Assembly: GCA_013420905.1 (NCBI GenBank)
Contig: JAAXNY010000010.1
Coordinates: 1,860,001 to 1,924,000 of the forward strand
Direction of reading: 5' to 3'
Length of the DNA: 64,000 nt
Source of the DNA: Collybia mongolica
Lineage: Eukaryota > Basidiomycota > Agaricomycetes > Agaricales > Clitocybaceae
The translations under genes and the position numbers were made by a program. The first letter of the stretch is position 1; each line of letters starts with the position of its first letter. Below, one piece after another: positions 3,333 through 51,189 of the stretch. The notes beneath the pieces were generated by a model that did not search any database, was not told where the DNA came from, and saw only the letters and a program-made list of their open reading frames with translations.

Positions 3333-3335
3333 ACG

Positions 3336-4286
3336 ACGCTTCTTGATCTTTTACCACCACCATCCGACCGTGGGAATTTGTCCCTCCTGCACTAGGTCGT
3401 CCCTAAACTACCTAACACCTCATCCCTAATCGACATCGCCTTTCATCAGACCACTCTTTTGGCCTGGGCCACCATCCTTTTATACCATATCCAAATTTTT
3501 AACTTATCAGAGCTGATCCTGACTATCTGCAGGGTCATCTCATCTTGCCTGTACTGGGGGCTTCACTAATCCGTTCACATCCACCTCATCAACTACCAGG
3601 CCACATGAGGACACCACAACTCTAGTACTCTGCTTCGCGCAGATCCTTAGGGAGTGTCACTGCCAACATTCTCGATGATTTATTCGTACTCGCTTAACCA
3701 CTACACCCAAACACAAAAGGAGGAAGGGGTCTGGCCCCTGATCAGCTACTGTCCCTGCACAGAGCACACCTCATGGGGAGAATGCCAGTTTATCGACCAA
3801 TGGTGGGATTTGGCGGCCTCAGTTTGGAGGGGAGTCATTGCTTTGGGAGAGCGGTGTGGAACAGGGGGGAAAGTAATAGGGGGATTCAGGAGAGGGGGAG
3901 CAGGTTTGAGGTACAGGTTGTTCATTTAGTTTGGACATTTATCTTCGACACTGGGGGGGAGTAATGGGTTTCCAGGGCGCCCTGAAAATACCAGGGGGGG
4001 AGTGGAACGGGGTACCAACGTGAAGGGAGGGGGCCATGCCCCAACAAGCGAAGGCAAACCTTTAAGGTGTTGGGAGGTTCAGACATGGTACAGTACAATA
4101 CCGTTGGACTGCAGGTATCCTCAGTCTAGACCCGTAATACAACCTGGAGAGCAACTTAGTGTACAGCTCCACCCTGATGGCTCATTACAGATTACTTAGT
4201 GGTAATAGGTTTTTATACCCGCATGTAGCTGGGTCAAACCCACATGCGCTTAATATTATTATATGAACCCAAAAAAAAAAAAAAAA
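3336..4286 (+). mobile_element. Retroposon B, full-length copy 1 (SINE-like, poly(A))
   Basis: It starts ACGCTTCTTGATC and ends in ATATGAACCC followed by 16 A. It is flanked on its 3' side by GCTGGGATGCTTGCC (4287-4301), one half of a TSD whose other half is at 52139-52153. It is nearly identical to the inverted copy at 51190-52138; in the stretches I compared the differences were mostly C/T at CpG. A 91-codon frame at 3654-3929, which begins at a Met in MSLPTFSMIYSYSLNH, stays open in both B copies but matches nothing I recognise. It lacks any reverse transcriptase, so it was presumably moved by a LINE. Confidence 0.75.
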
Positions 4287-5394
4287 GCTGGGATGCTTGC
4301 CCAACCGAGGTTGAGCTAGCAAATGGAGCCAGAGCTCATTGTACACAGGCCGGAAGGGCCAATCTACACCAGGGGGTAGGCCCCCCACTGCGGTGCCCCG
4401 CAGTGGGTGGTGGCTTCGAGTCCACCGATTATCCAGGTTCGCATGTTCGGGCAGGGAGCACCCTATAGCTGTCACTTAGGACACTGAGTACCGCCCCTAG
4501 CCTGTTTAGGACTAGGGAACGTCGAACGCGAATGCACTTTCGTTCTCCGAGAGGAAGTCAACCAGCCACGCATAGCGCAGCTGACGGCCGGGCTTGTCTT
4601 CCCGCCCATGTCGCAGACAGTCATATAGGACGTGTTGTATGGTTTCCAGGGGAGCACCGCACCTATAGGAGACAGATTCTTCCTTGAAGAATCACAATCG
4701 GAACGCCCCAATTGGAGCGTGTCCGGTGATGCATCGCACCACGCAAGCGGTCAAAGCATGGCTGTGACCAGTCTTGCGCATCCATGGCCCATTGTTTACA
4801 TGGGTCGGGGTGAGTGGGGTGTCCTTTTTCGCATAGAGCATCAGGAAATTGGAGCCAATGTACTTCTTGGATTGGAAGAGAGACTTCCAGCCGTCAAGCA
4901 TGCATGGGAGGAGGGGGAGTGGATGCATCAGTGATGATGCAGATGCTCCATGGGGAGTGAGAGGCCTCATTGACAGCGCTCTTCAGCAATGAGATGCAGT
5001 CTTTCATGAAATCCTCGCGGTGATCACTGCCCTTAGGTGGGGGGGTGACAATATCATAGACTATGCAATCAGGGAACAGGTCCCTGGGGCGCATGCCCGG
5101 TTGGTTGAGTGGGTGGACGGGGTCCAGATCCAGGGAAGAGAGGCCAAGGTTAGCCCAGGCCTCTACGACAGGCGATACGAGTTTCCCAAGCCTATGGCTT
5201 GGGTTGCAGGCATTGAGGGTCTCAACAGAGAATTTGTGGTTCCTGTCAATGAGGCGACGAAAGGCGTGCGAGGCCTGAAGCGCATGGGAGCAGACATGAC
5301 TCCTTTCCACCAACTTCTTAACATGAAGGTGGATAGGGGGGATGCCTGCGAGGGTCTCACCAGCCCCGTTTGGGGATGTAATGCAGGGCACAAT
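4287..5394 (-). mobile_element. 5'-truncated LINE fragment (RT C-terminus, RNase H, zinc-finger tail)
   Basis: Read on the minus strand from 5381, it matches the LINE at 37.8-43.6 kb. It shows GIPPIHLHVKKLVERSHV, a fragment of the RNase H region, and the C-terminal CG..LETIQHVLYDC motif typical of LINE ORF2 proteins, followed by 3' UTR. The frame is broken. TGCAGGGCACAAT (5382-5394) at its 5' end is the complement of ATTGTGCCCTGCA after the poly(A) at 52280-52292, so this is the body of the LINE whose 3' tail lies at 52139-52280. Retroposon B had inserted in its 3' UTR at GGCAAGCATCCCAGC before the inversion separated the parts. Confidence 0.8.
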
Positions 5395-6349
5395 ACCTCC
5401 TCTTTCCCAACAAAGCCCACTTAGTCCTTAGGTGCTTCCTTCCCTGTGCAGCTGAGTTTCACCATTTATATCACTCCCCTCTGGGCACTTGATGCAATGT
5501 GACCCTTTACACTAGCTTTGCTAGAAGGCAGTGTTGCTTTGCATCATGACCCAGTGGCTCAACTAGCTTTTTCATTTCAGACTGGGAGTGGCACCTAGCT
5601 GGGCTTGTAAAAATACTGGCCTAAGCCCCATATGGTGTGTTGCTGACTACATGTTGGCAGCCAAGGCGGAGGCATGATGTCAGGAGATTTCAGAGATTTC
5701 AGTAACTCATGAAAATCAATGGGTCAAACATTTGATGCATTGATTAATGGCTATTAATATCTGGCCCCTTCCGTGGGAAGGCTGCTGAAGGTACATCTGA
5801 CCCCAGCCTGCCTGAAGGTTCACTGTGGCCCAATCAGGATCTTGTGGGATCTATGAATGGAAAGGAAGCTGATCAGCAATCAATGGGGGTCACTGGTCAG
5901 CCCCAAGGCTCTTTAACATAGTCCCTTAAAGAGGCCTTGAGGCCCTGAAAAGCTCCTGTCTAAGGTTGGGGGGGCGGGGGAGGGGGTTTAACAATTTTTA
6001 ACATGTTACTAACATGTTATTGACTTATGTGAATAACCTCCTCCAAGCCACAACATAAATTATGATTATGAAGTCCACACATCCAGCTTCGGATTGTCAG
6101 AGTGTATTTGCAAACAGCGTTTCCAAACTGCGCCCTTGAATCAAATGCCAATTTATATTAAATTACCACTCTGATTGCGCCCTAAAGACAAGGAGAATTC
6201 GACGTGGGGGCATTCCATGAAAACCCAAACTGATCCAGTTCTATTCGGAATCTGTACGAAACTTAGCATTTGCCAATACACTATGTTGTGTAAGGGTCAT
6301 GTTTGTGTATTTGACTTCGTTTCAACCGTGGTTGCGCAAGAATGGTGTA
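5395..6349. other. Intergenic, no gene seen
   Basis: No frame in this 955-bp stretch shows a recognisable protein or consistent splicing. A G-rich run (about 5966-5988) and a direct repeat of ACATGTTA near 6000-6020 are the only features noted. It should hold the 3' UTR of the P450 gene. Confidence 0.5.
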
Positions 6350-8429
6350 TCATTCCGTGTCAGACATGACCATTTGGGCAAGGAGAGCTTGGGCCGTTTC
6401 GTTTCGTGGTTGTATATCACAGAGGAATGGTTTCGGATGACTTGAATGTGTGTTAGTAACTCGTTCGAAACTAAACAAGACTCAAAAGACCTTGCTATGC
6501 CAGATATAAACACAAGTTCGGGAGTGATTTCCTTCCCATCACCATCAAGAGCTTTTTTTATTTTGACGGTTGCCAGAAGTGAGGCAACAGCGATCCATAG
6601 ACTGGCATCTGCAAGATATCGACCTGGACACACCCTGTAATAGTAGGTATTCAGTTAAGGTAACTTAGAATCTACAGAAGCCCACTTACCTACGCCCGAA
6701 GCCAAAGGTTGTGATAGGAAATGCCTCGCCATTACCCTCAGGCTTCGGTAGGAAGCGATTTGGGTTGAACTTAAAAGGTTCTGCATAGACATGTTCGTCG
6801 AGTGTCATACCCCTGGCATAGTCTCAACCATGAATTACCGATGTATTGATAGGCACTCTTACCTGATATTAGCAATGATGGTAGAGCCTTTGGGTATGAA
6901 CATGCCGTTATATATGTCATCTTCCAGAGAGCGATGGGGTACGCCTGTTGATAAAAAATATCCATTTTAGCAGGGGGAAAGGTGGAACATTGTCGTGAAC
7001 CTGCCAGTCGGAGCAGCCTGATACCACCTAAGGGATTCTTGCAGGACGCATTCCAAGAATGGAAGTGACTCTCGATCACTAAGTTCGGGAAGGCGACCCA
7101 TTCCGACGACCTTATCTATCTCCTCCTGAGCCTTTGCCTGATACTCCGGATGGAGAACCATTGCTAGGAAGAATATCGACATCGACGATGCAGTCTTTGT
7201 TTACCCCATAAGCCACACATATAGGCACACGAAATATGACTCACAGTATCTGCACCTCCAATATACATGGCCCCAGCGGCACCCAAGATATCTTCTATCT
7301 TATACAAAGGTTTTCCATCTGGGTCGCGAAGAGCCTCCAGCTGGGACGCTAAAAACGATGGTCTAGCAGTGCCTCTGGCCTGTGTAAATGAAGAATCATA
7401 AACTTTTCGAGCTAGATGTGACGATAATACAAACCAGTTGCTCTTTTACCGCATTATAGGGATAATCGTGTAGTTGACGCACGATCGGCCGATGGTCCCG
7501 TGCGAATTTGGCATAAAATGTTCCCGGAAACCAAGATGGAAAATGCTGGACTGATATAATGTCAAAAGAGGATGTCGAGAACATCGGTAACCACTTCGAT
7601 GTAGTACTCACGAAATGGGAAGAAATCAACCGCAGTGGCCCCAGGAGGGCCCGAATTGGACGCAGTAAATCCAACGTTCTCCGCCATCCGGATATATGGA
7701 TCGTCATCTGATATAATTTGATGCCCTGACACAAGGCGTATAACGATTGCTGTTGCGAACCTTATAGAGGCATCAAGGAAGAAAGCTAGAACATAAACGT
7801 AGAAAGTACCGTGCAAGGAATCCATCTCGGTTCTCGGGCTTCATTAATAAATTCTGTACTAATACGCGCGCTTCTCGAGTTTGGAAGCGGTGGTAAGATA
7901 CACATTCGTTTTTGTTGAGATACTGCTGTAGCAGCCTTCGCTGAGTATGGAACTGCTTTCCATAGTGTAGGAACGTGACGGTCGGATCCCAGCCCATTCT
8001 GTATTTTCTATGGGTTAACAGAAGAAACAGTGAGGGAGGAAAACCATAGGTGGTCACAGTTCAAATATCGGGAAGTCTGGTCTGTCACTGTAGTTGGAGC
8101 TTCTTTTTTCAAGCAAATCGACAGCGGCTTGAACGCTGTTAAGAACGATCATCGGCTTTCCCAGTACATGGAGATAAATGACATCGCCTGAACAGAGAGG
8201 GTGAGGTTTGCTATTCATCGAACAAATATCAGTTCAACGTGCCGTATTGCTTTCCGAGTTCATAGAAAAACATATCCTGGTCGGATGGAGGAATGATTCG
8301 AGCGTGTCCTAGAATTGGGTCAGCAGGAGGACTTGGTGGTAAGGGAGGGGTCTGCTGCGATGTTTTTCGCAACCATGCTATGAAGGCATAGGCGCAGGTG
8401 GCGGAACAGGCAAGGTAAAGGAGGGCCAT
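6350..8429 (-). CDS. Cytochrome P450 monooxygenase
   Basis: This gene has many short introns and is read from ATG 8429 to TGA at 6350-6352. The N-terminus carries one membrane anchor ([20 protein letters not shown]), then a proline hinge ([11 protein letters not shown]). This is the arrangement of ER-anchored class II P450s. The K-helix ExxR motif is ESLRW. A PERF-like FNPNRFLPK precedes the haem-binding loop FGFGRRVCPGR, whose Cys is the haem thiolate ligand. The C-terminus [13 protein letters not shown] appears after a last intron. The overall pattern resembles the fungal O-methylsterigmatocystin oxidoreductase-like P450s, but the substrate cannot be told from sequence. No other secondary-metabolism genes adjoin it; the next gene upstream, in divergent orientation, is an HpcH/HpaI lyase. 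All key motifs are present, so it looks functional. Confidence 0.9.
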
Positions 8430-9357
8430 GAAGGTTCAACGTCCTGCCCATGGTCTGGATGTCTTATGTTCACAGGTCGGCATATGTGGATGCACACCCC
8501 ACGTCAGCTGGCACCGCGTGGGTGCGAGTTGGTCAGGAATTAAGGGACGAATAAACGTCGCAGAACATCCGAGATCCTCAAAATAAGTCAGCTGCTGACA
8601 ACAGCTAGAGGCTGGTGTGGGGCCCTATCCCAGAATGTGGGCTACCAAAGCCGGGCGGTACCACAGTACCAAGGTACATGATAGCCGTAATTTAATGTCG
8701 AAAAGCGGAGAGCGGGTTTGTGGGGATCGGGGTCGAGTGTGGCTGCCTTTTGGTGTACCAAAAGCATCAAATGATTAGAACACGTAGAAGTGTGACATGG
8801 GACTGGGAAACAAAATTCACGATAAGCGATGGGAGACTGGAGACCTTTGAGGAGAGCGGCGAAAAGCACTAACTCATCAAAGTAACCAAGTTCCTTCTTG
8901 TGGGCAGGAAAGGCCACAGGCCAGCTATGAAAAATTGACGCCTGACTATACGCACTTTGTGGCTCATTTAAAAATATAGGGCCCTTTTGCAAACACGCAA
9001 ACCAGGGTCAAATATATTCTGATGTCCAAAATATCCCGTTTGGTTTCTCGAGGCACCATCCGCGGGCAGTGACAATTGCATTGTTCCGATGATCCAAGAG
9101 ACACTACCTCGGTGAGTACGTCAAATTAGAAAATTGCCAAGCATACTGTAGCACGGCCAAGAGGCCCCCCTCGAGCAAACGGCTTCAGTGAACATATGGT
9201 GAACATGTATGGCGGAGATAAACTGACGGCTAAAAAGTGGTATTTATAATTAGTCTCGACTCTCTCGAAATGTCGTAATTGTTACAAACATGAGTACACA
9301 GGACTTGCATCAACCAGAACGCTGAATCGCTGTCAGTTCGTGCTCAAATCATTCAAG
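8430..9357. promoter_or_regulatory. Shared upstream region of P450 and lyase genes
   Basis: This 928-bp gap lies between two divergently transcribed genes, so it must contain both promoters. A 116-codon minus-strand frame (8642-8992) resembles no protein and has no splicing context. I could not identify a clear TATA box or specific operator. Confidence 0.4.
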
Positions 9358-10770
9358 ATGTGGTCCTTCAGCATTCTGAAGGGTCTGCAGAGACCAATAT
9401 GTGTCCAACACTCCATTAGGACAATGAGCACTGAAATACCTCTCCGGCGGTCTTACCTTTACGTTCCATCCTCATCGGACCGAATGCTTGAGAAATCTCT
9501 AACGTCCAGTTCCGACATGATAATATATGACTTGGAGGATAGTATATCTCCCTCACCTACGGACAAAGAGAACGCGAGAAATAGACTTTTGAGCTTCTTG
9601 AGTGTTTGTGTCTAATTTCTCTCTTCGTTGTAGACATTTAACGCGACAAACGCAGCGAAATAATCTTCCCCATGCCAGCCGGATCGCCGTACGCGTAAAT
9701 GACATCAACACTCCATTTTTTGACAAGGACATTTCTCAAATAGTAAACATACCTCCCTCGAGTTATCCAAGAGGCTCAGTCTCTCGTTTCAGGCCTCTCT
9801 AGTTTCAGTAGAAACACTTGTTCTTCCGAAAGTTCACTCCGCCCAAGACATCCACCATGTGTCTCGTACAATACACATAGCGTCGCGAGGCCAACCACGA
9901 GAAACGCCACTCAGAATTGTCCCTAGTATTGAAAGTGCTCGAGCCCTTTGGAATCTCGGTAGCATAGCTGGATGGAAGTCAGAATATGGTTCAGAAGCGG
10001 GGGGGAAATTGAGCGCCTTATTGGTACGTCTCCCGCAGTCATGTCTATGTGGGATTCACAGGCTGTATTTTAGTTCGCTGCTGAAGACTGTAATTTCGTC
10101 TATTACCTGAACCGTTTTAATGGCTGAATATTGCCTTCCCAGACTGTGCCGATACTGGAATAATCAGGTCGTCATCTCGACGAGAGCTCCTCTACACACG
10201 TTCACAGATAGTGATAGCAGCTAAAACCTTTGGACTCGAAGCTATTGATATGGTAAACATGTGCGTTGTTTTTGCCTTGCGAGTTTTTACCATCGCCTGT
10301 ACAGGTATGTGTGAACTACAAGGATACAAATTACTTAGAAGACGAGTGCTACGACGGAAGACAACTTGGGTTCACCGGAAAAGTAGGTCCCTGATTTTGC
10401 AACATATTTTGCAATCTACATGGTGCTCTAGCAAGCCATCCACCCGGCCCAGGTTGGCATAATACAATCGGCCTTTGGCCCCACATCTGCTGGTAAGCGA
10501 TGTTTTCGGGTAAACTGACACCCCTTCATGACACCCCTGGTAATACATAGAGATACATCGCGCTGCGAAAATAATCAGGCAAATGGAACTCGCTCATGCT
10601 TCGGAGAAGGGAGCGGCAGGGCTGCAGGGAGAAATGATAGATGCTCCAATGTTAAAACAAGTATGTGACCTTTTTGGGAGAAAGTGAATTATGGTGATGA
10701 CCCGAAATAGGCGGAGAAGACATTGAAATTAGCGAAAGCAGCTGGTTTGGATATACCTTCTGTAGCTTGA
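9358..10770 (+). CDS. HpcH/HpaI aldolase / CitE-like lyase, probably mitochondrial
   Basis: This spliced gene runs from ATG 9358 to TGA 10768-10770. The first ~25 residues are basic, hydroxylated and poor in acids (MWSFSILKGLQRPICVQHSIRT when read in two pieces), as in a mitochondrial presequence. The lyase core follows: RRSYLYVPSSSDRMLEKS, DMIIYDLEDSISPS (Asp-Glu metal/substrate region), RIAVRVND, RIVPSIESARAL (Glu ligand), AIDMVCVNY, and the closing GKQAIHPAQV signature. The last exon ends TLKLAKAAGLDIPSVA. The family includes the beta subunit of citrate lyase and citramalyl-CoA lyase (CLYBL), which cleave CoA thioesters with Mg2+. The length and single-domain form fit the eukaryotic CLYBL-type enzymes. 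The precise substrate is an inference. It converges with the AN1 gene, with 92 bp between stops. Confidence 0.88.
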
Positions 10771-10862
10771 TATCCAGGAAGGTTAGATACATAGGTAGGG
10801 GATGGAGGAGTAAGAGTAATAAATAGTCTGGAATCCCAAAGTCGGTCCGCAAAAGAAATCTG

Positions 10863-12131
10863 CTACATGATGATGCAGTCCCCTTTCTTCTGAGCTTCCT
10901 TTTCTTCAGTAGCTAATATGGTTTTCTCTTCTTCACTCAACAGCTGGAATTTTACGATGAGATTTTGGGGGATGACTTTGGATTCGGGTACTTACTCCTT
11001 TCTTGGCCCGCGCCTGCATTGCCTTGAGCTTGCTCGCCCGCTCCGCCTTTGCTCGTCTGACGAAAATAATAATGACATAAATGATGGTGGTTGTTGCGGT
11101 GGATGCAGTAACAATACATAGTTCAGGCAGTTGCGAAGATGGGTCGTGGTACAAATGCGTTGTAATCGATGATGGCGACAGGAATTAATACAGGTTTAGG
11201 TGGTGCATCAGTACCAGGGGTAAGGGTCGTCACAGTTGCGGTCGTAGAAGAATCGTCAGCGCGAGGAACGTCATTATTGGCAACGTCAAGGATGGGAGGG
11301 GAGGATATGAAAGAGCTAGTGCTTCATGAGTGGTTACTGAGAGAGAAAGTGACGAAACGAACATACCGGTCAGTTTTGGAGAATAGATTGGAGCCTGATA
11401 AAGCCTTTGGCTCAGCCTTCATAGCCGGTGCAGGTTTAGGTTTGGTCACCGCCGCCGTTGCCGGAGACGCCATGGTCTTTTTTATTGCACCCATGGTGGC
11501 CGCGCCAGCTGCAGAAGCCTTGGTATTCAGGCGTTTCGCGTTGATGTTCGAGAAAGGATTAGCCATGCCGGGCTTTACATCGGAGGATGCCACTGGAGTG
11601 CAGTTGTGATCGGTAGGGAACCGGTGAGCAGGGCAAAATTGCTCCTTGCAGCTCTGGAGAAAAGTGAGCTGGAATATTAAGGAAGTTTCAATAGGGACTC
11701 ACATCGCATCGGATGGGCTGGAACAGGACTTTCTTGCAGTTCCCTCTTGCACAGATCGGCATGGTCCTTGCCTTCCTTGTTTTGCCTGTCATGATGGAAC
11801 ATTCAGTATTAAAATGCTCCTCCATCCGTACATTTGGGTCTTGATTCGGCCGTACAGCTACGGGTACGTGGCAGAATGGGCCTTTACAAGAGAAAGTGTT
11901 ACACTGCATCAGGTAGAATTCCGAATGTTTATGCTTACAGTCTGGAGCAATCCTATTATGCTTACTCTCGTCATACTTGGGGCAGTGATGTGCTGAGACC
12001 ATGAAGTGTTCTTGACAAAATGCCTCTTCGCAATGCTGGCATTTGAACGGTAAGAAGTCTACCATGAGACAAGACGGATGAGAGCATTGTTTTCCAATGG
12101 CGAGAAGTTGTACGTCGCGTTCAGTCGACAT
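10863..12131 (-). CDS. AN1-type zinc-finger protein with C-terminal CaaX box
   Basis: It is read from ATG 12131 to TAG 10863-10865. The first AN1 finger is near residues 15-50 (CSHPSC, FKCQHCEEAFCQEH, AHHCPKY). After an intron with donor GTAAGC comes a C..C..H linker (DCPFCHVPV, HFNTEC). The second AN1 finger follows (CARGNCKK, PIRCDSCKEQFCPAH, DHNCTP). Then there is a low-complexity Ala/Lys/Pro segment and a charged helix (RRAKAERASKLKAMQARAKKG). The last exon, after a GTAAGT...CAG intron at about 10930-10990, gives LLSEEEKTILATEEKEAQ and ends KKGDCIIM. That C-terminus fits a CaaX farnesylation signal. Proteins of the ZFAND2/AIRAP group act with Cdc48/p97 and the proteasome under stress, and the AIRAPL branch is prenylated. 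Function here is by family. Confidence 0.88.
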
Positions 12132-12477
12132 GATAGGGGGATATTAGAAGTTTTGCAATAGTAAAAAAGAGAGAATGCAGGTTAATATATAAGAACCCAA
12201 TTGGCAGATTACGCGGCCTCCCCAAGGCCACGTAAGTCAGTGAAGCACAGTTGGCAGATGAAGAAAGGCAGTGAAGCGTCGGGAATGTTCTCCATCACGT
12301 AAGCAGTGCTGATTACTAACTACCAAAAATACGCTCTGACATTAAAGCAACCTTCAGATTGCCTTGAAGCCATTGAGAGCTTTGCCATCGTCCTGTGGCC
12401 GCTGGTGGAATTCGGCATTGCTGTAGCTATAAGCTGCAGGATAGATGAGCAAATTTCTGCCGACTGCAGTTTCAGAC
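12132..12477. promoter_or_regulatory. Divergent promoter between AN1 and phosphatase genes
   Basis: This 346-bp intergenic stretch separates two genes that start outward from it. It has a short direct repeat CAGTTGGCAGAT / AATTGGCAGAT (about 12199-12260). An AATATATAAG stretch near 12183 could serve as a TATA-like element for the AN1 gene. No further site can be assigned. Confidence 0.4.
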
Positions 12478-13637
12478 ATGATCGTCAAAGTCATTTTCGT
12501 GAGCCTTTCCATGCCGAATATTGAGTAAGATGAACGCAACTAACAGTAGCATACACACAGATCAGACACGGAGAATCTGTGGACAATTTGGTAGGCTTGA
12601 CATACACTGGCAATTCTACAGTACTAAGGGAAACTCAAGCGATCTCTATGGGCTGGCTGGAGGGATTCTGCGCTTTCGAACCATGGCAAGTGTCCGCCAA
12701 AGACCAAGTTTTAATTAAGTCTGATTTTTTTCAATGGTATTACAGGCAAGGCAGTTAGTGATGAATGAACAAGTTTGAACGGCAGGCTTACTGATAGGCT
12801 CTTTCCGCAGCAAGCGGAAGCATTGGGAATCTCTTTGGCTACAACCAAATTTACCGCCATTCATTCTTCTCCACTCAAACGCGCTCTCATGACGGCCCAG
12901 GCTCTTCAGAATGCCCAATCCAATCCCAAGCCACCTCTCACCACTTCCTTGCTTCTTCGAGAACAGCATTATGGACTTGGGGAAGGTAAAAGATATGACG
13001 TAACCAGGGACCCAACACTCTCCCTCGCTGAGCATTTTGCACGAGGTGAATATCCATGGCTGCGGAGTCGTACAGAACGTTTCCCAGAAGGCGAAAGCTT
13101 AGAGGATGTTGCTAGGAGAGCTGAGGAAGCTATCGACGAGATTGTATTTCCATATGTGTGGAGTGCAGTTGAAAACGAGACAGAAGGGGTACATATCGCT
13201 GTTGTTAGCCATGGGCTTTTCATCAGGGAGGCTATCGCTGCATTAATGAGGAAAACAGGGTGTGCCAAGGGAGTTAATCCTCAGGATTACCGTGGGCTGC
13301 AAAATACAGGCTGCACCAAAGTTACCATCAAGGTTGATACCAAGGTTCGTTGGGGGTGGATTTTGTAGCTGACAAACATCTTAACTGTCTGGATGTCAGG
13401 ATGGAGATGGAGGGACCGAATCTCGTTGCGTTGTTCAGGTGACAGAGCATAACTGCTCTGAACACCTGAATGGCTTGGTATATGACCACTTTTCTGCAAA
13501 TCTGTGACATGCTGTGTGCTGATATTGTGCAGGTTCGGCAGAAGGGTGGGATAGGAAGTGCGGGCTACGATCCAAACCAGAAGGACATTCGTGATTTTTT
13601 CAAAATTACTAATGCCGGCAAGACTAAACCACGATGA
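12478..13637 (+). CDS. Histidine phosphatase superfamily protein (phosphoglycerate-mutase-like)
   Basis: The start was set by splicing. ATG 12478 gives MIVKVIF, a GTGAGC intron (12499-12560) follows, then IRHGESVDNL (12561-12590), whose RHGE holds the catalytic His. A third exon from 12640 gives RSLWAGWRDSALSNHGK, which joins the exon starting at about 12784 (LTDRLFPQQAEALG). The second catalytic arginine is in HSSPLKRALMTAQAL, the Glu is in LREQHYGLGEGKR, and the second His is in IAVVSHGLFIREA. The last two exons end IRDFFKITNAGKTKPR, stop 13635-13637. Family members range from phosphoglycerate mutase to fructose-2,6-bisphosphatase (TIGAR) and broad phosphatases. The sequence does not decide between them. 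It converges with the bL35 gene. Confidence 0.88.
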
Positions 13638-13825
13638 AGAACCTGCAAAACAGAACATGTTCCTCGTGCAAAAGCCTCTCCCGAATTACAATGCGGTCAA
13701 TTATTAATTTGATGTATGATACAACTGTGATACCTGTTCATCCTGTTAAAACACGTCGCAATACATTCCATTTGACTGAGTGCTGACGCACCCAGAGTTG
13801 AACGTTGAGGCTCGACACAAACTCT

Positions 13826-14191: not shown

Positions 14192-14375
14192 AGTAGGACC
14201 AGGGTATGGGGCCAGAGGACAGGAGTCCACAACTTGTCACGACCTGAAAACTTGGGTCGACACGTGACTCACCCCGCTTGTCAATTCCTTTTGTCGGATT
14301 CGACTCGGATACTGTTAAGACCACCATCTGCTGCCTGGAAACCTCTACAATCCGTGAAGACATAAACGACTCCCC
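14192..14375. promoter_or_regulatory. Bidirectional promoter of MRPL35 and UFD2
   Basis: Only 184 bp separate the two divergent start codons, so both promoters and both 5' UTRs must share this stretch. No TATA box is obvious, as is common for housekeeping genes. Confidence 0.5.
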
Positions 14376-40800: not shown

Positions 40801-41587
40801 AGTTGACTTTAATTGACATCTTCCCTTTGGGGAACTTGACCCTAAGGGGGATGTCTAAAAGTAGAGGAAAGTGATTGGGCTCACCCTTTTCACCTAGTGT
40901 CAGGTCAGCTGTGTATCCCCGGAATGCCAGGACAAACACAAGGTCAAGGATCAAGCCTCGCAGAGCCAAGTTATATGGCAGGTGCGTCACCCAACCCGAG
41001 GGGGGGGCAATCCTCTCAAGGCTGAGGGCAGCTGCACACTCCATGAGCCTGTTGGCCATGGGGTGCTTGTGAGTGAGGGTAGCGTCCCAATGCAATGAGG
41101 GGCAATTAAAATTGCCCCCCATGTAGCTAACATTGGGGAAGGCATCCAGGTAGTTCTCAAGGAATTGGATTGCGGATCTGTTCTCATCTGAGTAGACATT
41201 CATCAGATGCACTGGGCCCAGGTGGCCCTGTATAGTGACAAGCATGACATCGCGGTGGTTAGTGATGTCTAATTAGAGCTTAGGCTTGACCAAGCAGATA
41301 GCTTGGTTGACGTAGGCCATGATGCACAGCCAATCCTTGGCTGCATCGAACCCTTTGGGGAACATGGGAATCCAGTCCAGGTGAACGGGGGGACCCCTAA
41401 TGGGGATCCCATCTTTCTCAGTCAGGGAGGCTGTATACCATACAGTGGCCCAGGGCAGCTCTTGCAGGAAGAGAATATCAGTAATGTCTTTACAATGTTC
41501 TAAAAGGTCAACTGTCCAGTGTTGTTTGCGCCCAACATTTTGGCAGTAGATTCTGAGTGTATTTACATTGGAAGTTGTACTAGACAT
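37836..41587 (-). pseudogene. LINE ORF2: endonuclease, reverse transcriptase, RNase H
   Basis: The start is MSSTTSNVNTLRIYCQNVGR. The endonuclease/exonuclease/phosphatase fold shows FLQELPWA (Glu), VHLMNVYSDEN, YMGGNFNCPSLHWD and NHFPLLLDIP. In the reverse transcriptase, motif A is VTFDLTQFFPSVNH and GQGRALSPILSALCLAP precedes the catalytic loop. That loop reads SYVDNG where YVDD/YADD is expected, so the second catalytic Asp is Asn. RNase H remnants read VHIFSDSTNALQHSL, and the protein ends with CRCGVLMETVQHVLYDCPRH, the usual zinc-knuckle tail. Frameshifts and stops occur, for example after VKPKL and in the RT, and about 170 bp of foreign Copia DNA lie inside the RT. It is dead. Confidence 0.88.
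39620..39790 (+). mobile_element. Copia gag-pre-integrase patch inside the LINE RT
   Basis: On the plus strand, opposite to the LINE, a short stretch reads VEFTRVLHVPQLQNNLLSIL followed by YLTRVKGFNIFVDNQALWF. That is a typical Copia segment just upstream of the gag-pre-integrase domain. It interrupts the LINE frame between FFPSVNHK and VVAFFRSYL-like sequence, where LINE relatives are continuous. It is not the same stretch as in the surrounding Copia, so it came from another Copia family. Edges are accurate to about 20 bp. Confidence 0.65.
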
Positions 41588-41733
41588 TAATCAAGTAACT
41601 TTATGTCGAATTGCTCAAGTATCCTCCCTGCATCCTCAGAGCCTGTCTCCTGTAACGGTGGGGAATGGAGTGTTAGTGGAGGGCACGAAGTGTAAAAGCT
41701 TGTTGCCTACCTTCTGGGCAGTGTACTTGGCCG

Positions 41734-43548
41734 CTAGCCATTTGGCATCATAGTGGTGTTTCCAAAAGGAACACCTCCTGTCATCAGACTCATGGCTGCC
41801 GGCATGGCAAGCCTCAGTGGGGTAGCCTTGGGGGCAGCCTTACAGCACACCACTAAGTTGTGGTGGTTGCAGGCATCATGAGGCCTGCTGCAATAGGAGC
41901 ACAGCTGAGCTCTGAAGGGACAGACCTCCTTGTGGTGGCCAAACCTCCAGCACTTTGTGCAGATAGGGACACCTGTCCGCTTATTGGCAGGCAGGATGGT
42001 AAGAGACTGGGACCTGAGCATGAAGCTCTTGTTCCAGAGGCTGCAGAGGTGGGTACCTCCACGAGAGTCATAGATGTCAAAGAACATGGTACATGAGTTT
42101 GATGTCTTAGAGTTTCTGACCACATGGGGGAATGCCCCCTGGTACAGATGGATCGCACCTTTCCATTTGCAGGTTTCAAGGATAGCCTTGACCTCCAGTG
42201 GAGTGATGGGAATGGGCTTCCCAGCATTGTCATACATGACAGTGGTGCTGAAGAAGGGGAAGTTGGGGATGCAGAGGAAGGTCTTGGAAGACCCGACCTT
42301 GACCTGCGTCTCTGTCTTGGCCCCCTGAGCCTCCTTTGCCTTGGCGTCAAAGAACTGGTATAGGACCTGGAGGTCATCTTTGGAAGGCACAGAATCCATG
42401 ATGAGGGACAAACCTCTGAGATGGTTTTGTGCTTCCACGACAGCACGGACAGTTCATTGATTAGAACCAAGAATACTGTTGACTGTCGGAATAACAGGAG
42501 CATCATCCCAGTACACCGGCAGGGAGCAGAAGACCATGACTTCCTTCCGAGAGGAGCCGTGGGTGGTAGAATGCTTTACATTTGTGCGAGCCCATTCAGT
42601 GTTTGTGTGAGAAACAGCAGCCCCACCCACAACAATCTGTTGTGCCTGGACAATGGATGCATTGGGAGCTGAGGGGAAGGACTTGGTCATCTGGACAAGT
42701 CCCTCAGCCATGGCAGCAGTGCCCTTCCTCCGCTTAGAAGGGGGAGGTTGGGGGAGAGGGGCAGCAGCAGCTGTAGAGGCAAATGAGGCTGGGGTTGGGG
42801 GGGGCAGGGGAGGTAGGGGCCGTCTAGACAACTGAGCTGGAATGAGCTTCCTCCGGGGCCTGCGGAGGCTAGCAGGGTCAGAGGTAGCATTGGACAAATG
42901 GGGGGGCTGCTGCCCTGACCCAGATGGACCATACTTAGGAGGGGGAGGAGTGTCAGAGGGGAGCTGGCTCCGAAGGCTGTCAATGACCTGCTGTAGGGTG
43001 GCAACTTGAGAAGTCCCATTGGCAATGTGCCAGATGAGACCAATTTTGGAGGCCAAGTAAATGACCTGTAGGAGCTCAGTGGCAAAGGTGTCAGTGAGGT
43101 GGGAAGGGACACGGTATCCCTTTTCAGTCCAGAGGTTCATAAGCTCTGTGGTGTTGTGGAGCAATGATGTGGCTGTCTTGACGTCAAGCTCCACCAATTC
43201 TCTTGAACCAGTTGGGAGAAAGACATCAGCAAGGTCATTGAAGCTCTCCTGAAATGAGTCCATCTCTACCCCCTCCAAGGTTTCCTCTTGGTCCTGGGGA
43301 GGCGGAGCTGGTGCTTTGCCTTTGGCAGACAACAATGTGATGGTGTCGTCGTCTCCTGCGGTGTCCATTGGAGTGGAGGAATCCTCCTCTGATGCAGGTG
43401 CAGGCATGGGTGGTCGAAAGAAGACCTGTTGTGCAATAGTAGGGAGGCCCAGGGGCCTCTGAGGAGTGGTGCTCCTGGATGGAGCAGAGGAGGAGGACCC
43501 GCGAAGGTAGTTGCAGATATCTGGCAGTTTTGAAGCATGTTCTGCCAA
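41734..43548 (-). pseudogene. LINE ORF1, RNA-binding Gag-like protein with CCHC knuckles
   Basis: It starts MAEHASKLPDICNYLRGSSS, with long Pro/Ser-rich disordered regions in the first 300 residues. The second part has FDAKAKEAQGAKTETQVKVG and ends with zinc knuckles: CTKCWRFGHHKEVCPF and CSYCSRPHDACNHH. These knuckles are usual in nucleic-acid-binding ORF1 proteins of LINEs. One TGA (about 42454-42456, after SILGSNQ) splits an otherwise single frame of about 600 codons; it continues TVRAVVEAQNHLRG. A CGA-to-TGA change would account for it. Confidence 0.8.
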
Positions 43549-43644
43549 TCGTTGAGATCAGCCAGGGGGGTTGTCTTTGCCCATGTCAGAGGCATGGGGC
43601 TTGGCTGGTAGAGAGTTATTGGGGGTGATCTAGGGCAACAGGGT

Positions 43645-44575
43645 GTGTAGGATGACAGTGACGACTATGACAGTGGCTGTGCACATCATGGTAACATCAC
43701 TGACCTAGGTCCCCAGATTCATTGTTGGGATCTCCATCAAGTGGGATCACATAAACACAATAGTCATGCTGTCCCAGACTGCACTAATTGACAAGATCAA
43801 ACCAACAGTTTGGACAAGCTGATGCATCACCATTGCCAATACCACTTGATCCTGGACTGAAGCTCAGATGTGTTGATCAAACAACTCTAACCCCAGAAGA
43901 ACAAGCTACACTATCAAAACTGCCCTACAGGTCACTTGTTGGGTATTTAATCTACCTCATTATCTCCATTCACCCTGACACTGCCTGCATTTGTACAACA
44001 ACTGTCACAATACCTTGACTGCTTCTCATTTGTCCACTGGAATGCAGCCATATGCCTTGTCTGCTATCTGAAGGGTACCCAAAATCTCAAGCTCCACCTT
44101 GGAGGCTCAAAACAAGTCAACCTCACTGGCTTCACCAACTCAGCCTGGGCAAACTGCTTAGACACTCATTGCAGTGTTGGGGGATACATGTGGACCCTTG
44201 GATCTGGAGCCATATCTTGGAGTGCCTGAAAACAGAAGACTGTCACTGCATCATCATGTGAAGCAGAATACATGGCAGCATTTGAAGCATTGAAGGAGTG
44301 CAGATGGCTTCAAGCACTTCTATTGGCAACCGGCTTCCTGGAACAAGGACCAACCATATTACTATGCAACAACAACACTGCTATTAACCTATCCAAGGAC
44401 CCAACGCTCCATGCCTGCATCAAATATATTGACATCAAATATCACTTCCTATGTGAATGCATCCAGTCAAAAGAGATTGAGATTCACTATGTCAACACAA
44501 ACAACAACATCACCAACCTCTTTACCAAAGCTCTTGACCACAAAAAAATTCACTTGCCTTTGCCACTTCCTTAGT
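43645..44575 (+). pseudogene. Copia reverse transcriptase/RNase H tail of the decayed element
   Basis: It resumes after the LINE with a VDD-like motif and then WDHINTIVMLSQTALIDKI, FGQADASPLPIPLDPGLKL, TLSKLPYRSLVGYLIYLIIS (Copia RT end) and RNase H parts AAFEALKECRWLQALLLATG and KYIDIKYHFLCECIQSKEIE, ending ITNLFTKALDHKKIH. Frames change at least twice between these blocks. Beyond 44575, purine-rich GTGAGGAGGAG (44600-44635) could be a polypurine tract, and 44640-44960 may be an old LTR (contains ATATATATACC). Confidence 0.75.
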
Positions 44576-44639
44576 CTCTTCTCTTCTAGACATCAATTCC
44601 ATGTGAGGAGGAATACATCCATGGTGAGGAGGAGTATTA

Positions 44640-45109
44640 AGTTTTGATCCAGCATTGTAGACACCCTTCATCCATGGTTGCATCATCTACTCTCTGCCCC
44701 CTTTATCATTCCCTTTATCATAATCCCCTTTACCTCACATATTCATATATATACCTTACTATACCATATGGACACCCTCAGTTGTTTATACACAGACTGA
44801 GGGTGAGTTGCTTCCTTATCTATCACTCAGACCATTGCTTACTGTACCACTAGTGATTGAACTGTGATCTATTATAGGTACAGTACTAATAAAGGCATTT
44901 ATACACAGACTGCGGTTACTGAACTATGATCTATTATAGAATAACCTGAGGTGGATCTTAACAGACAACAAGGCTGATGGGTGATGTGGCACCCATCAAC
45001 CATACTCAGTCATTGCCAGTAATGGCCAAGAGTAGGCAGCAGGGGATCATTATAATAACAAGCAGCTTGGACTAACAAACTCATATTGTCAAATGGTTAA
45101 TCTGCATGC
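44640..45109. other. No gene; possible old LTR and repeat fragment
   Basis: The stretch has two copies of a TTTATACACAGACTG motif (about 44785 and 44900) and paired GAACTATGATCTATTATAG/GAACTGTGATCTATTATAG stretches. Near 44976-45045, CACCCATCAACCATACTCAG resembles CACCCATCAATACTCGG at 58930, so both derive from one repeat family. No coding frame is convincing. Confidence 0.4.
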
Positions 45110-45114
45110 TTTAT

Positions 45115-45332
45115 TGTTGAACTTAGCAGCAAGGGAAGGAAAGAGCGAGAAATAAAAGAGTGAATTGAGATAATAAAATAATGTACATAATCGTTCGTAT
45201 AAATACATAAATAATATAACTCCTATAGAAATAATAAATCATATGTGAGTCCGTTAGAAAAACAAATGCGAAACTTTATATGTCCATGTGATTTTACATG
45301 TCATGTGAATGCCGGATCACTCTATTCCAACA
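45115..45332 (-). repeat. Copia 3' LTR
   Basis: On the element's own strand it begins TGTTGGAATAGAG and ends GCTAAGTTCAACA, with TG...CA ends. It has the same length, and by eye the same sequence, as the 5' LTR. The polyprotein stop codon (TAG) falls in its first bases. The polypurine tract AAGGGGGAG lies immediately before it (45333-45342). Confidence 0.93.
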
Positions 45333-48300
45333 CTCCCCCTTGATCCGAGCGCATACCTATTAATTTGGATTTTCGTTCGTGTTCAGGGCGCGGAAGTGGT
45401 TTAGTGAAAATGTCCGCTCGGTTGTCGGCAGACGCGCAGTGGAATATTTTTATTTCTCCAGAAGTTAAGCGTTCGCGCACGAAATGGTGTTTGACATCAA
45501 TGTGTTTGCTGCGGGCGTGAAAAACTGCATTGTTTGCAAATAAGATCGCCGATTGGTTGTCTGTGATGAGATCGGTAGGTTTTTCGCATGGAAATCCGAA
45601 GTCGGCCATCAATGATCTAATCCAGGTGACTTCTTGTGTCGCATGGCAGAGCGCCATGTATTCCGCCTCCATACTTGATAAGGCAACTGTCGGCTGCTTC
45701 TTGGAGCTCCATGAGATCACCGACTCTCCGAGTAAGGTGACGTAGCCAGAAATTGATCTTCGATCATCAGGACTATTTCCCCAGTCCGCATCGGCATAGG
45801 TTCGGATAATCAAATTTGAGTTATTATTTGATCGGTAGAATAGGCCATGGTCCATTGTTCCTTTCAAATAACGGAAGACGCGTTTGACTGCGGTCCAATG
45901 TTCGGGACCTGGGTGACTTGAAAATTGACTGAGGTGTTGTGTAGCATATGCAGTCTCGGGATGCGTTGAGATTGCACCCCAGATGAGCATTCCGATGGCC
46001 GTCGGATAGAATTTCTCGATTTCAGGGTATCGCTGATCATCTTCGGTGAGTTTGATCAATTTGATGCCATGATCAAGCGGTGTTGCAACAGGGTTCGCGT
46101 TTTCAAGACCCATTTTCTTGATAATTTTCTCGAGGTATGGTTGTTGTGATAATTTAATAGATCCATTGGTGAACCTTTTTACTGAGATGCCAACGATTTG
46201 GCTAGCTTCTCCTAGGTCAGAGATTTCAAAGTGTGTCTTGAGTTCGGCTTTGAAGTCTTTGATGGTTACAAGGGTTGCACCCAAAATAGACATGTCATCC
46301 ACGTGTACTCCAACAATTACCAGATTATCTCCAGATCCTCGGATATAGACGCATTGATCAGCCATCATTTTTCGGAACTTCATTTTGAAAAATGCGGAGT
46401 TGAGGAGTTTGTTCCATTCTCATCCAGATTGTTTAAGTCCATAAATAGTTTTTAATAATTTCCAGACGCGTGATGTGCCGTCTTCAAAGCCTGGAGGCTG
46501 CAATAAATAAATATCTTCCTTGAGAATGGCATTTAGATAAGCGCCTTTGATGTCGATGGTGTGAAAATGTAGATTATAGGCGGCGGCAATGGCTACCATG
46601 AAGCGGAGGGTGTCCATCCGAACAACTGGGGCATAGGTTTCCAGATAATCTATGCCGGGCTTCTGTGAGCATCCCTTGGCAATGAGTCTAGACTTGGCCT
46701 TGTAGAATTTTCCATCTCCATCAGTCTTGGCCTTCCATACCCATTTGGATTTGATGGGATCACGATCTGTAGGCAATTCGGTCAACTCATATGTGCCGAG
46801 ATCTTTCAATTGTTGGATTTCTTCCTCCATAGATTTTTTCCATAAAGTGCTTTGTAATGCCTCTTGGATTTCAGTGGGTTCATAAATTGTGCTGATGAAG
46901 GCAAAATCAGGGATATTGAATGTAGGAGTATTTTCTTCCTCATCAATAATTTCGGTGATGTAGCCAGAGTCGGGTAAATCTTGATGTACTTCTTTGGGAC
47001 CTCGGGCTGCGGGATTATGTAATAATCGATAATTTGGTTGCGTCGTTGAAGCAATTTGGCTTGATGGTTCTCGAATCGGTTGTGATTGTGGCTGTGTTGA
47101 TTTTTCGATCATCTGCCTTGTAGTCATTGTGGGGGCAGTTTCTGGCATTTGAGCCATTGTTTGCTTGTTAATTGCTGTCTCCCCCTCGAGCTGCAATGGC
47201 GAAAACCATTCAATTGTTTCTGGATTTTTGCTGTCTACAAATTTGACATTTCGCGACGTTTGCACTTGTCTCGCACCCGGATTAAAATATCTGTAGGCAC
47301 GCGATTGATCCGAAAGTCCGGTGAAAATGAATTCGCGTGATTTCGGCTCGAGTTTGCTAAGGTTTTCACCCTGATGCAATACCCAGCACTTCATTCCGAA
47401 TTCTCGGAGATTTGATGCATCGGGCTTCTTGCCCGTATATATTTCCTCCGGAGTTTTATCGATCAAGATCCGAGTTGGAGATCGATTCTTAAGGTACACG
47501 GCATATGCTACTGCTTCTGGCCACAAGAATTTCGGCATATTTCTTGCAATAAGCATTGTGCGCGCATGTTCTACAATTGTTCGGTTTGCGCGCTCGGCAA
47601 TTCCGTTCTGGGCCGAAGAGTACGGGGCTGTGACCTCGGAGCGGATTCCTTTTTCCGCTAGAAATCTTTGTACTTTGTCATTTACATATTCCGTTCCGTT
47701 GTCGAATCGTATGGCTTTCAATGTTTTTCCAACTTGAGTGTTTATGTAAGCATTATAATTTTTGATCAAAGTATTGATTTCTTCGGCTTCTTTGGTTTTT
47801 AGGAAATTGATGATGGTCCGGCGGCATTTCCCATCAGTAAATGAGATGTAATATCTTTCCCCTCGAATTCCTGTTGTCCGGGCAGGTCCCCATAAATCTG
47901 TGAGGGTCATCTCACCAATTTCGTTAAAAGTTGTGTTTGAAAACTTTGGGAATGATGCCACGGTTTGTTTTGCTTGGATGCAGGCCGTGCAATCATTGGG
48001 ATCAATGGATTCGTCGACTTCCATCCCATCAATCATTTTCTTTGATTTCAACATTTTAATTGATGCAATGTTGAGATGTCCAAAAATTCGGTGCCATTCG
48101 TCCCATGTGCGAGCTTCTGATGCGATCAAAGCCATATCGGGAATACTGATCTTTGCCATCAAATTGTAAAGCCGGCCAATTTTTCGACCTTGTAAGATGA
48201 TGTCGGTAGATTTCGGGGGTGATATATTGATGTATTCTCCTTTTAGATTCAGGGTGAACCCTGCATCTGTGATGCGCCCAACCGAAATAAGATTATAGGG

Positions 48301-49332
48301 TGCATTTGGAGCGTGGACAACATTTGTCAACGTAATTGGTATGTGGCGATTGCCTACTTTGCATAAGATCTTTACCGATCCTCTTCCTAGTCCCGGAGTT
48401 GATCTGAATCCAATAATTTTGTGTCCGGGGGTTTCTTTGTAATTTCTGAAGATTGATCGGTCACGAAAAATGTGGGATGTTGCCGCACAATCGGCTAAAA
48501 TTGAATCTGAAGTTAATGCTGGCAAGGCAATATCCACCTGGTTTTCGGGCGCTGCTACGAAAGCATAATCGTCCGAGGCTTGGTTAGCCTTGTCTGGCTT
48601 ACTGCCATTCTTCTTTTTCCATTTCGGCCTCCAATTTTGATCGGATGATCCCCCTTTCCTTTTGGGGCAATGGAAGGCAATGTGACCTTTCTGATTGCAT
48701 TCATAGCACGTCACATTTGGATTATATTTTGCTGCCAGGGCCGTATCCCCCTGGTGCCAAGATTTGATCCGTCGATCTTCCTCCAAAATTCTCGCAATTA
48801 ATTTGTGACTCTCCTTGAGAGTGGCAGAATCAACCGAAGAGATAAATGGGTCCCACGTGTCAGGTAGGGACGTCAGCAACGTTATGCTGAAATCTTCATT
48901 GTTGATTTTTGAGCCCAATCCGGCCAATTCTTCGATGTAGCCGCGCAGGGTCCGAATGTGTTCCTCGATATTGGCACCCTCGGCACATTGTGCTTGAAAT
49001 AATTTTTGATGCACCGTTACAATTCCGATCGGACCACGTGCCTCATACATGGAGCACAACGCGGTCCAGGCCTGATTCGACGTCCCAGCACCCGCTATGT
49101 AAACTAGCGGTCCGTCCCCTACACGGAGCCGTATGGTCGAAAGAGCCTTCCTGTCCTTTGTACGCCATTCCTCTAAATTCCCCTCATCAGTTGGACTTGA
49201 ATTTGAACCGTCCGCGTAACCGATTAGACCTTGATCGGTCAAGATGTCGATCATTTTGATTTTCCATGTGTGGAAGTTCTCGGCGCCGCGTAGCGCTTCG
49301 ATCCGATAGATGTTTCCGGATGATTCGGTCAT
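45322..49332 (-). pseudogene. Copia Gag-Pol polyprotein with one in-frame TGA
   Basis: ATG 49332 gives MTESSGNIYRIEALRGAENF (Gag, UBN2-like). The CCHC knuckle is CYECNQKGHIAFHC (about residue 210). The protease has ILADCAATSHIF where D-S/T-G is usual. The gag-pre-integrase follows (EWHRIFGHLNIASIK), then integrase with FTDGKCRR, RFDNGTEYVN and SAQNGIAERANRT, and reverse transcriptase (DIKGAYLNAILKEDIYLLQP, then GVHVDDMSI). RNase H is AYADADWGNSPDDRRS and SSMEAEYMALCHATQE. The TGA at 46420-46422 stands where GLKQSG is normally followed by Arg (CGA), then EWNKLLNSAFF resumes in frame. All later motifs are intact, so one transition separates it from an open frame. Confidence 0.92.
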
Positions 49333-49407
49333 GGTCGGTAATAATTTGATCAGGGTTCGATGGATGACGTATGGACTTGGTAATGATGTTCAAAACGATT
49401 AAGGCCG

Positions 49408-49419
49408 GGGCCCATAACC
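49408..49419 (-). promoter_or_regulatory. Primer-binding site for a tRNA-iMet fragment
   Basis: Directly next to the 5' LTR the plus strand reads GGGCCCATAACC, which is the anticodon-loop region of initiator tRNA-Met (CAT anticodon). On the element strand it is the complement, GGTTATGGGCCC. Drosophila copia is known to be primed by a tRNA-iMet half cut in the anticodon region, and this site fits that mode and not the usual 3'-end priming. The match was made from memory of tRNA-iMet. Confidence 0.7.
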
Positions 49420-49637
49420 TGTTGAACTTAGCAGCAAGGGAAGGAAAGAGCGAGAAATAAAAGAGTGAATTGAGATAATAAAATAATGTACATAATCGTT
49501 CGTATAAATACATAAATAATATAACTCCTATAGAAATAATAAATCATATGTGAGTCCGTTAGAAAAACAAATGCGAAACTTTATATGTCCATGTGATTTT
49601 ACATGTCATGTGAATGCCGGATCACTCTATTCCAACA
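49420..49637 (-). repeat. Copia 5' LTR
   Basis: It is 218 bp, with the same TG...CA ends as the 3' LTR and no seen difference. On the minus strand it would drive transcription of the polyprotein; the AT-rich stretch near 49505-49530 (complement of ATAAATACATAAATAATAT) is a plausible TATA region. It is flanked by TSD TTTAT at 49638-49642. Confidence 0.93.
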
Positions 49638-49642
49638 TTTAT

Positions 49643-50669
49643 GTACATGACATATGACCTTGAGGCCTATTTGACTCTCCAAATATTGCATTTTTGTGCA
49701 TTAAATAAGCAATGGTAATTATGATTAAGTAAGCAATTTGGACAGTCTGCATGGACTCCATGAGGAGTCCATCCAAGCTGGGTCTGAGCATCTAAGTAAA
49801 AATGTGGATTTATGGACTTAGCTTTGACTTGGCTCAGATGCAGACTGCCATTTGAGCAGAGCTCCCTGCCAAATGGGGTCTAAGCTCAGTCTACAGACAT
49901 CTGCATTTGTCTGTGTAGTCTGTGTGGCTCATGTGGCTCAATGTAAAGTTCTCAGAGAAGCTACTGAGTTGGTTGTGTATTTGGAATATACACATATGGA
50001 TCTACATTTTTCAAGTTTGTTAATTTTTTCACACAGTCCATCTCTGAGAGTCTGAGTCCCTACTTTACCAGCTGACTTGTTTTTAAGGGAAATACCTAGA
50101 TACATATTATTACCTTTTGTTGTTGGATATTTGTATGGGATCTAATTCATTTGCAGTTGCTTATATCATACACCATGGATATGGGTGAAGTGCAACAAGT
50201 TTTTGACAAGCTCAAAATGTGTGTAATATAAAGTTGAAGAGATTCTGGATAGCTAGTTCTATTGCAACAACCTGATTCTAGAAATATAAAGAAAAGTTAA
50301 TCAAAAATAAAAATAAGGGCTCATACATATCTGCCAGTAATGGCCCTCTACCTCAAGTTATATTTGTGTCCTCACAACTCCTGACATACCTCATCCAATG
50401 TACATATTGTAAAATATTCTATGGCTGTATGCTAACACTTTGCACTGCCCAGGTCATTGTCTTCCTCATGGTGCACCTAATTGGCAATGCAATCACACAT
50501 GCACACCTTGCAGAACTGAAAGGATGGAATTGGAGAGGTGTCTAGCAGGGCCACCACAATTTTGAGGGAGGTAGATGCATGCATGGGTTGGAAGAGGAGG
50601 AGACTGCAAACAGGAGAGGCTGTAGTCATATATATGTCAAAATGTGTCACAATGCCTGTAAATAGCAAT
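49643..50669. other. No gene; contains one end of a CTTTACA-type TIR element
   Basis: GGACTCCATGAGGAGTCCATCC (in two pieces, 49752-49773) and GTGTGGCTCATGTGGCTCAATGTAAAG (about 49929-49955) resemble the right end and subterminal repeats of the element at 35801-37050. The left end was not found. The remainder, 49960-50669, is AT-rich and shows no coding pattern. Confidence 0.45.
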
Positions 50670-50684
50670 GAATATAAAATTTGC
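50670..50684. repeat. Target-site duplication of retroposon A, right copy
   Basis: GAATATAAAATTTGC is the exact reverse complement of 2853-2867 (15 of 15). It abuts the 5' end of retroposon A (TGATGCTTCTTGATC at 50685). The opposite orientation of the two copies is the key evidence for the inversion. Confidence 0.85.
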
Positions 50685-51189
50685 TGATGCTTCTTGATCT
50701 TTTACCACCACCATCCGACCGTGGGAATTTGTCCCTCCTGCACTAGGTCGTCCCTAAACTACCTAACACCTCATCCCTAATCGAGATTGCCTTTCATCAG
50801 ACCACTCTTTCGGCCTGGGCCACTATCCTTTTACACCATATCCAAATTTTTAACTTATCAGAGCTGATCCTGACTATCTGCAGGGTCATCTCATCTTGCC
50901 TGTACTGGGGGCTTCACTAATCCGTTCACATCCACCTTATCAACTACCAGACCACACAAGGACACCACAACTCTTGTACTCTGCTTCACGCAGATCCTTA
51001 GGGAGCATCACCACCAACATTTTCAACGAATTTTTTCATACTCACTTAACCACTACACCCAAATACAAAAGGAAGAAGGGGTCTGGCCCCCGATCAGCTA
51101 CTGTCCCTGCACAGAGCACACCTCTTGGGGAGAATGCCAGGTTATTGTCCAATGGTGGGATTTGGTGGCCTCATTTTTGAGGGGAGTCA
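50685..51189 (+). mobile_element. Retroposon A, 5' half
   Basis: It starts TGATGCTTCTTGATC and follows the full-length B copies up to GAGGGGAGTCATT (ends about 51189), where it meets the poly(T) of retroposon B copy 2. The continuation GCTTTGGG... is found only at 3332 and leftward. It is more divergent from both B copies than they are from each other, which supports A and B being separate, older insertions. Confidence 0.8.

Follow-up and report, generated by a model that had tools for sequence, protein, structure and literature searches.

A ~47 kb inversion in Collybia mongolica, probably formed by recombination between two opposed retroposon copies

Inversions generated by ectopic recombination between dispersed mobile elements are already known from flies and primates. 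In Drosophila buzzatii, inversion 2z3 arose by ectopic recombination between Galileo transposons, and that report names as criteria for such an event the opposite orientation of the element copies, exchanged target-site duplications (TSDs) and chimeric copies (PMC2775673). For human and chimpanzee, a second report gives 49 loci of retrotransposon recombination-mediated inversion (RRMI) by L1 and Alu (PMC2603318). Herein we describe a well-documented fungal member of this class from the agaric Collybia mongolica, in which a stretch of ~47 kb was very probably inverted by ectopic (non-allelic) homologous recombination between two opposed, near-identical copies of a poly-A retroposon that we term B. 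The locus lies in a stretch of 64,000 nucleotides, referred to throughout as the window, which comprises bases 1860001-1924000 of contig JAAXNY010000010.1 (C10) of assembly GCA_013420905.1.

Like 2z3, this locus has opposed element copies at both breakpoints, TSDs that have been exchanged, and surrounding nested insertions; unlike 2z3, the element involved is a poly-A retroposon. In that respect the locus resembles the L1 and Alu cases, where inversion likewise proceeded through recombination between poly-A retroposon copies. Those inversions were found by comparing two genomes, whereas here a single fungal genome reveals the former order by way of TSDs and of paralogous empty sites, that is, copies of a host repeat without the insertion. 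For 2z3 chimerism was shown and non-inverted chromosomes were sequenced (PMC2775673); here the paralogous empty sites stand in for the latter.

Each breakpoint carries a full-length B element (Table 1). Comparison of the window with itself showed that the two copies lie on opposite strands and are 98.3% identical over 949 bp, which does not agree with an earlier note on this DNA that had described B as a single insertion split in two. The element is ~930 bp in length plus a poly-A tail, is flanked by TSDs of 9-17 bp, and has no long open reading frame (ORF), the longest overlapping one being of 96 aa and extending outside the element. Comparison of B with Rfam gave no match up to E = 1 and no tRNA was found using bacterial settings; because no head derived from tRNA, 5S, 7SL or snRNA was found, we refer to B as a SINE-like retroposon rather than as a short interspersed nuclear element (SINE) in the strict sense. 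The two copies differ at 15 sites, 14 of which are transitions. When contexts were read by eye, 13 of the 15 fell at CpG, TpG or CpA positions, a pattern suggesting that methylated CpG sites have decayed in the host fungus.

Four exchanged TSD pairs surround the two copies: one belongs to a retroposon termed A, one to a long interspersed nuclear element (LINE), and one to each B. All four are inverted, and they are identical at 56/56 positions (TSD_A, 15/15; TSD_B, 15/15; TSD_L, 13/13; TSD_C, 13/13). The first three had been described in the earlier note as exact and inverted, and this was confirmed at the coordinates given there; within the window, each of these strings is found a single time per strand. 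The fourth pair, TSD_C, had been overlooked, and its length and position match those of the TSDs at other B-family copies. In this family one TSD copy usually precedes the 5' end of the element by a few bases and the other follows immediately on the poly-A tail, an arrangement to which the window pair conforms.

The hosts of the two B copies and the repeat that harbours A are each in two pieces. Retroposon A lies in a repeat, R, which as aligned starts ~55 bases upstream of the start codon of a gene encoding a PPWD1-like WD40-cyclophilin, and the flanks of A are at present 47.8 kb apart and inverted. We joined window bases 2740-2867 to the reverse complement of 50540-50669 (258 bases, with the join after base 128) and searched the genome, where 4/4 matches outside the window crossed the join. 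The best of them covered query bases 1-256 at 84% identity (C6:2950517-2950781), and the others covered 1-218 at 77% (C1:3846369-3846614), 1-148 at 79% and 62-218 at 70%; the weakest reaches 20 bases beyond the join. When the C6 and C1 loci were compared with the whole window, 2721-2867 adjoined 50361-50684 over ~460 bp of aligned R, with the two parts in the opposite relative orientation from that seen in the window and with a single copy of the TSD. Judged by their sequence, both loci are copies of R without A, and thus paralogous empty sites. A few hundred bases past R, the C1 locus also contains its own B copy.

A similar result was obtained for the LINE. A query in which 4302-4520 was joined to 52154-52256, with B removed (337 bases), returned 211 candidates, and 40/40 scored copies crossed the join. 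The splitting of A and of the LINE was thus borne out, and because R paralogues and uninterrupted LINE copies join the two ends, the inversion is supported independently of the TSDs. The split LINE has a poly-A tail and TSD_L; an ORF of 165 aa in its retained 3' part is without a Pfam match, and the RVT_1 domain was seen in a related second LINE and not in the retained part of the split copy. This second, longer LINE (37762-43664, - strand) contains RVT_1 domains and is 82-83% identical to the split LINE in two stretches. B and the LINE share the ending TGAACC before the poly-A (4240-4290 and 52225-52282), a weak hint that a LINE of the split type may mobilise B.

These features can be arranged as a series of events. 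Repeat R, upstream of PPWD1, would first have received retroposon A, creating TSD_A, and a first B copy (B1) would have inserted into A, creating TSD_C. Some ~47 kb away a 5'-truncated LINE would have inserted with TSD_L and would in turn have received a second B copy (B2), in the opposite orientation to B1, with TSD_B. Crossing-over between B1 and B2 would then have turned the intervening stretch round, leaving one full-length B at each breakpoint, each having traded one flanking TSD, and leaving A, R and the LINE each in two pieces of opposite orientation. As far as can be read from the window, this model leaves no piece missing or left over. Since the two copies of each TSD are made in direct orientation, the present order would be derived and younger than all four insertions.

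The earlier note had proposed three insertions split at the same two places, and that flipping 3333-51188 would restore them. Taken literally, this would require breaks without homology at 3333 and 51188, one of them within A and the other where tandem B copies in the LINE abut. Such a flip does rejoin A and the LINE, as does the B1 x B2 crossover, and tandem B-family copies occur elsewhere in the genome, at C11:788232-790131; but B is whole and nested in each host, both breaks would have to fall exactly at the ends of B copies, and the tandem B copies left in the LINE and the duplicated stretch left in A would both be unexplained, as would TSD_C, despite a length and position typical of a B-family insertion. 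We therefore regard this version as very unlikely. A crossover between the B copies instead places the breakpoints within those copies, and Table 1 accordingly lists the segment whose inversion the model makes certain. The two longest runs of identity between the copies, element positions 94-318 and 706-880, are candidate tracts for the exchange. Aberrant or hybrid transposition, in which a segment is flipped while an element moves, is less probable still: cut-and-paste transposons are known to yield inversions flanked by opposed element copies in this way (PMC2775673), but the B family, with its poly-A tails and TSDs of up to 17 bp, bears the hallmarks of an RNA intermediate, and the four TSDs can all be explained with no deletion and no extra TSD.

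To place the window pair within its family, B copies were located in the genome by pattern, allowing up to 3 mismatches, which gave 552 5' ends and 201 3' ends. A sample of 60 regions covered 39 other full-length matches and 22 places from the pattern listing, and is biased towards copies most similar to those of the window; after filtering, which removed 15 regions before counting, 46 full-length copies in 45 regions were left. An exact TSD of 9-17 bp of its own was present in the expected place in 33/46 of these copies, and in 30 it was at least 12 bp in length. We then matched the 5' flank of each of 48 copies, the two of the window included, with the 3' flanks of all the others. Strings of at least 12 bp in the TSD position were found in 5/2256 mismatched pairs, two of which are the window pair, with 14 and 16 bp. 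That unrelated insertions and accidental matches could account for the locus, as the earlier note had also argued against, is thus a negligible prospect, the more so as paralogues of R and of the LINE independently join both ends.

Three mismatched pairs remain. One is a poly-A artefact within a tandem pair at L018 (C11:788082-790281), where two B-family copies stand in direct tandem and one shares a 14-bp target with L010 on C10. The second, between L018 and L010, was rejected as a swap, as the 14-bp match is one-sided and L010 has a TSD pair of its own. The third, a 12-bp match between L055 and L013, was also rejected: it is reciprocal at 10 bp, but both copies have longer TSDs of their own, of 16 and 14 bp, and match both ways because their target sites share ten bases. 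The window pair is therefore the only one among the 48 copies whose members are without their own TSDs and carry each other's.

As the junctions sit in 949-bp repeats of 98.3% identity, where misjoins are expected, we considered whether the assembler crossed between the B copies, making the inversion an artefact of the assembly or a join of two haplotypes. A misjoin at these repeats would mimic the TSD pattern of a true recombination, and the results from the paralogues fit it too. Against this, the B family is resolved elsewhere, with no further swapped pair in the sample; the assembly has 26 contigs for 46.0 Mb, the longest of up to 8.2 Mb, a contiguity suggestive of reads long enough to cross 950 bp; the two B copies can be told apart at 15 sites; and no second, non-inverted allele was found in the assembly, where only one near-exact match exists for each flank of A. 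Overall, a misjoin is unlikely, and we infer both that B1 and B2 recombined with each other and that the organism itself carries the present arrangement.

Several observations weigh against this interpretation. All of the evidence, including the former order, lies within a single assembly, and although a misjoin between the B copies is unlikely, the earlier note's word 'proven' was too strong; the inversion itself is well supported by the TSDs, the empty sites of R and the uninterrupted LINE copies. When the outer flanks of the LINE were joined, 0 of the 41 listed matches crossed the join, and the flanks match different repeats. An exact TSD in the expected place was absent from 13/46 sampled copies, so that an absent TSD alone would mean little. 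One of the 13, L016, has a 14-bp TSD with one mismatch by eye, and for two others mates were sought: the 3' flank of L035 matches at a single further place, a copy of a repeat that has no B match within 3 kb, and that of L065 at 24 further places, two of which were inspected, neither with a B match. With respect to the criteria published for Galileo, the copies are in opposite orientation and their TSDs are exchanged (the 14-bp and 16-bp matches), and when linkage among the 15 differing sites was examined across the 46 other copies, no boundary between sites gave a clear signal of chimerism, the best log ratio being 1.44.

Gene order in other fungi does not discriminate between the two arrangements. 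The expected distance in locus tags from PPWD1 to EAF7, a gene in the inverted block, is 7 in the present order of the window and 1 in the flipped order, and we observed distances of 4 in Tricholomella, 4 in Bondarzewia, 14 in Ganoderma, 24 in Amanita and 52 in Volvariella, as read among the best 120 matches per gene and assuming the same contig where contigs agree in length. In the closest relative, Collybia nuda, the two genes lie on contigs of different length, as they do in Sphagnurus, Tephrocybe, Leucocoprinus birnbaumii and others; in Pluteus cervinus both are on one contig of 29.4 kb.

The inverted block carries seven recognised genes and, beyond EAF7, a transposon-rich stretch of ~30 kb. 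In the inferred ancestral order, the end with EAF7 would have faced PPWD1 and the end with P450 would have faced NOT2. Assembled manually from ORFs, the gene models remain incomplete. Of the products named in the earlier note, the P450, CitE-like lyase, AN1 protein, phosphatase, UFD2 and EAF7 all have Pfam matches, and the bL35m protein has a match whose score lies just under the cut-off (Table 1). Among the matches listed, the closest named protein to the PPWD1-like product is from Collybia nuda (95% identity over 93% of the query), as is that to the EAF7 product (88%). Within these hand-made models no recognised gene was seen to be cut by a breakpoint, and the breakpoints fall in mobile elements.

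Table 1. Coordinates of the inversion, its mobile elements and the neighbouring genes within the window
Feature	Position	Strand	Remarks
Segment certainly inverted under the model	4287..51191	.	TSD exchange and paralogous empty sites
Full-length B, left breakpoint	3333..4286	+	5' flank TSD_C, 3' flank TSD_B (exchanged)
Full-length B, right breakpoint	51190..52138	-	5' flank TSD_B, 3' flank TSD_C (exchanged)
TSD_A copy 1, GCAAATTTTATATTC	2853..2867	+	15/15 identical to copy 2
TSD_A copy 2	50670..50684	-	reverse complement of GCAAATTTTATATTC
TSD_B copy 1, GCTGGGATGCTTGCC	4287..4301	+	15/15 identical to copy 2
TSD_B copy 2	52139..52153	-	reverse complement of GCTGGGATGCTTGCC
TSD_L copy 1, TGCAGGGCACAAT	5382..5394	+	13/13 identical to copy 2
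TSD_L copy 2	52280..52292	-	reverse complement of TGCAGGGCACAAT
TSD_C copy 1, AATGACTCCCCTC	3320..3332	+	insertion site of the B within A; precedes 5' end of left B
TSD_C copy 2	51179..51191	-	reverse complement of AATGACTCCCCTC; beyond poly-A of right B
Host repeat R, left part	2721..2867	.	ends in TSD_A; boundary as aligned
Host repeat R, right part, now inverted	50361..50684	.	boundary as aligned
Retroposon A, 3' part with poly-A tail (poly-T on + strand)	2868..3332	-	93% identical to 3' half of B
Retroposon A, 5' part	50685..51191	+	93.5% identical to 5' half of B
5'-truncated LINE, upstream part	4302..5381	-	two stretches 82-83% identical to second LINE (37.8-38.9 kb)
LINE 3' end with poly-A tail	52154..52279	+	contiguous with 4302-4520 in LINE copies
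PPWD1-like WD40-cyclophilin gene	171..2666	-	outside left breakpoint; spliced model, nine introns
Cytochrome P450 gene	6325..8435 (approximate ends)	-	PF00067 on 6970-7200 and neighbouring ORFs; in block, now nearest gene to PPWD1
Citrate lyase beta/HpcH-like gene	9250..10459 (approximate)	+	PF03328 on 9724-10107; in block
AN1 zinc-finger protein (ZFAND2-like), exon	11691..12143	-	PF01428, PF25403; in block
Histidine phosphatase, exon	12769..13365	+	PF00300; in block
bL35-like ribosomal protein	13964..14236	-	PF01632, 28.3 bits, just below cut-off of 28.9; in block
UFD2-like ubiquitin elongation factor, exon	17808..18518	+	PF10408; in block
EAF7 gene	19128..19913	-	PF07904; in block
NOT2 gene	60816..63660 (approximate)	+	PF04153 on 62657-63124 and ORFs; outside right breakpoint

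Other mobile elements were found in the window. Two Tc1/mariner-type elements (33607-35218 and 55704-57315), each of 1612 bp and located between TA dinucleotides, are 100% identical and in opposite orientation, one inside and one outside the inversion; this pair is a possible further substrate for recombination. The longest ORF of the window proved, on protein search, to encode a copia polyprotein. A copia retrotransposon (45115-49637) lies inside the block with identical long terminal repeats (LTRs) of 218 bp and a 5-bp TSD (TTTAT) read by eye. Given the identical LTRs and the TSD, this insertion into the inverted block is probably recent.

The two B copies are still opposed, 98.3% identical and 47 kb apart, and the block could thus flip back and forth. 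It is conceivable, though we hold it to be rather doubtful, that the species, or the paired nuclei of a dikaryon, harbour both orientations; the flipped block would then suppress recombination in the region of P450, UFD2, EAF7 and the adjoining genes. Collectively, the four exchanged TSDs and the paralogous empty sites form a very clean record within a single genome, which fixes the order of events without recourse to a relative. The same test, in which swapped TSDs are sought within a family and intact paralogues of the split hosts are then examined, is applicable to any contiguous genome as a means of listing inversions of this kind.

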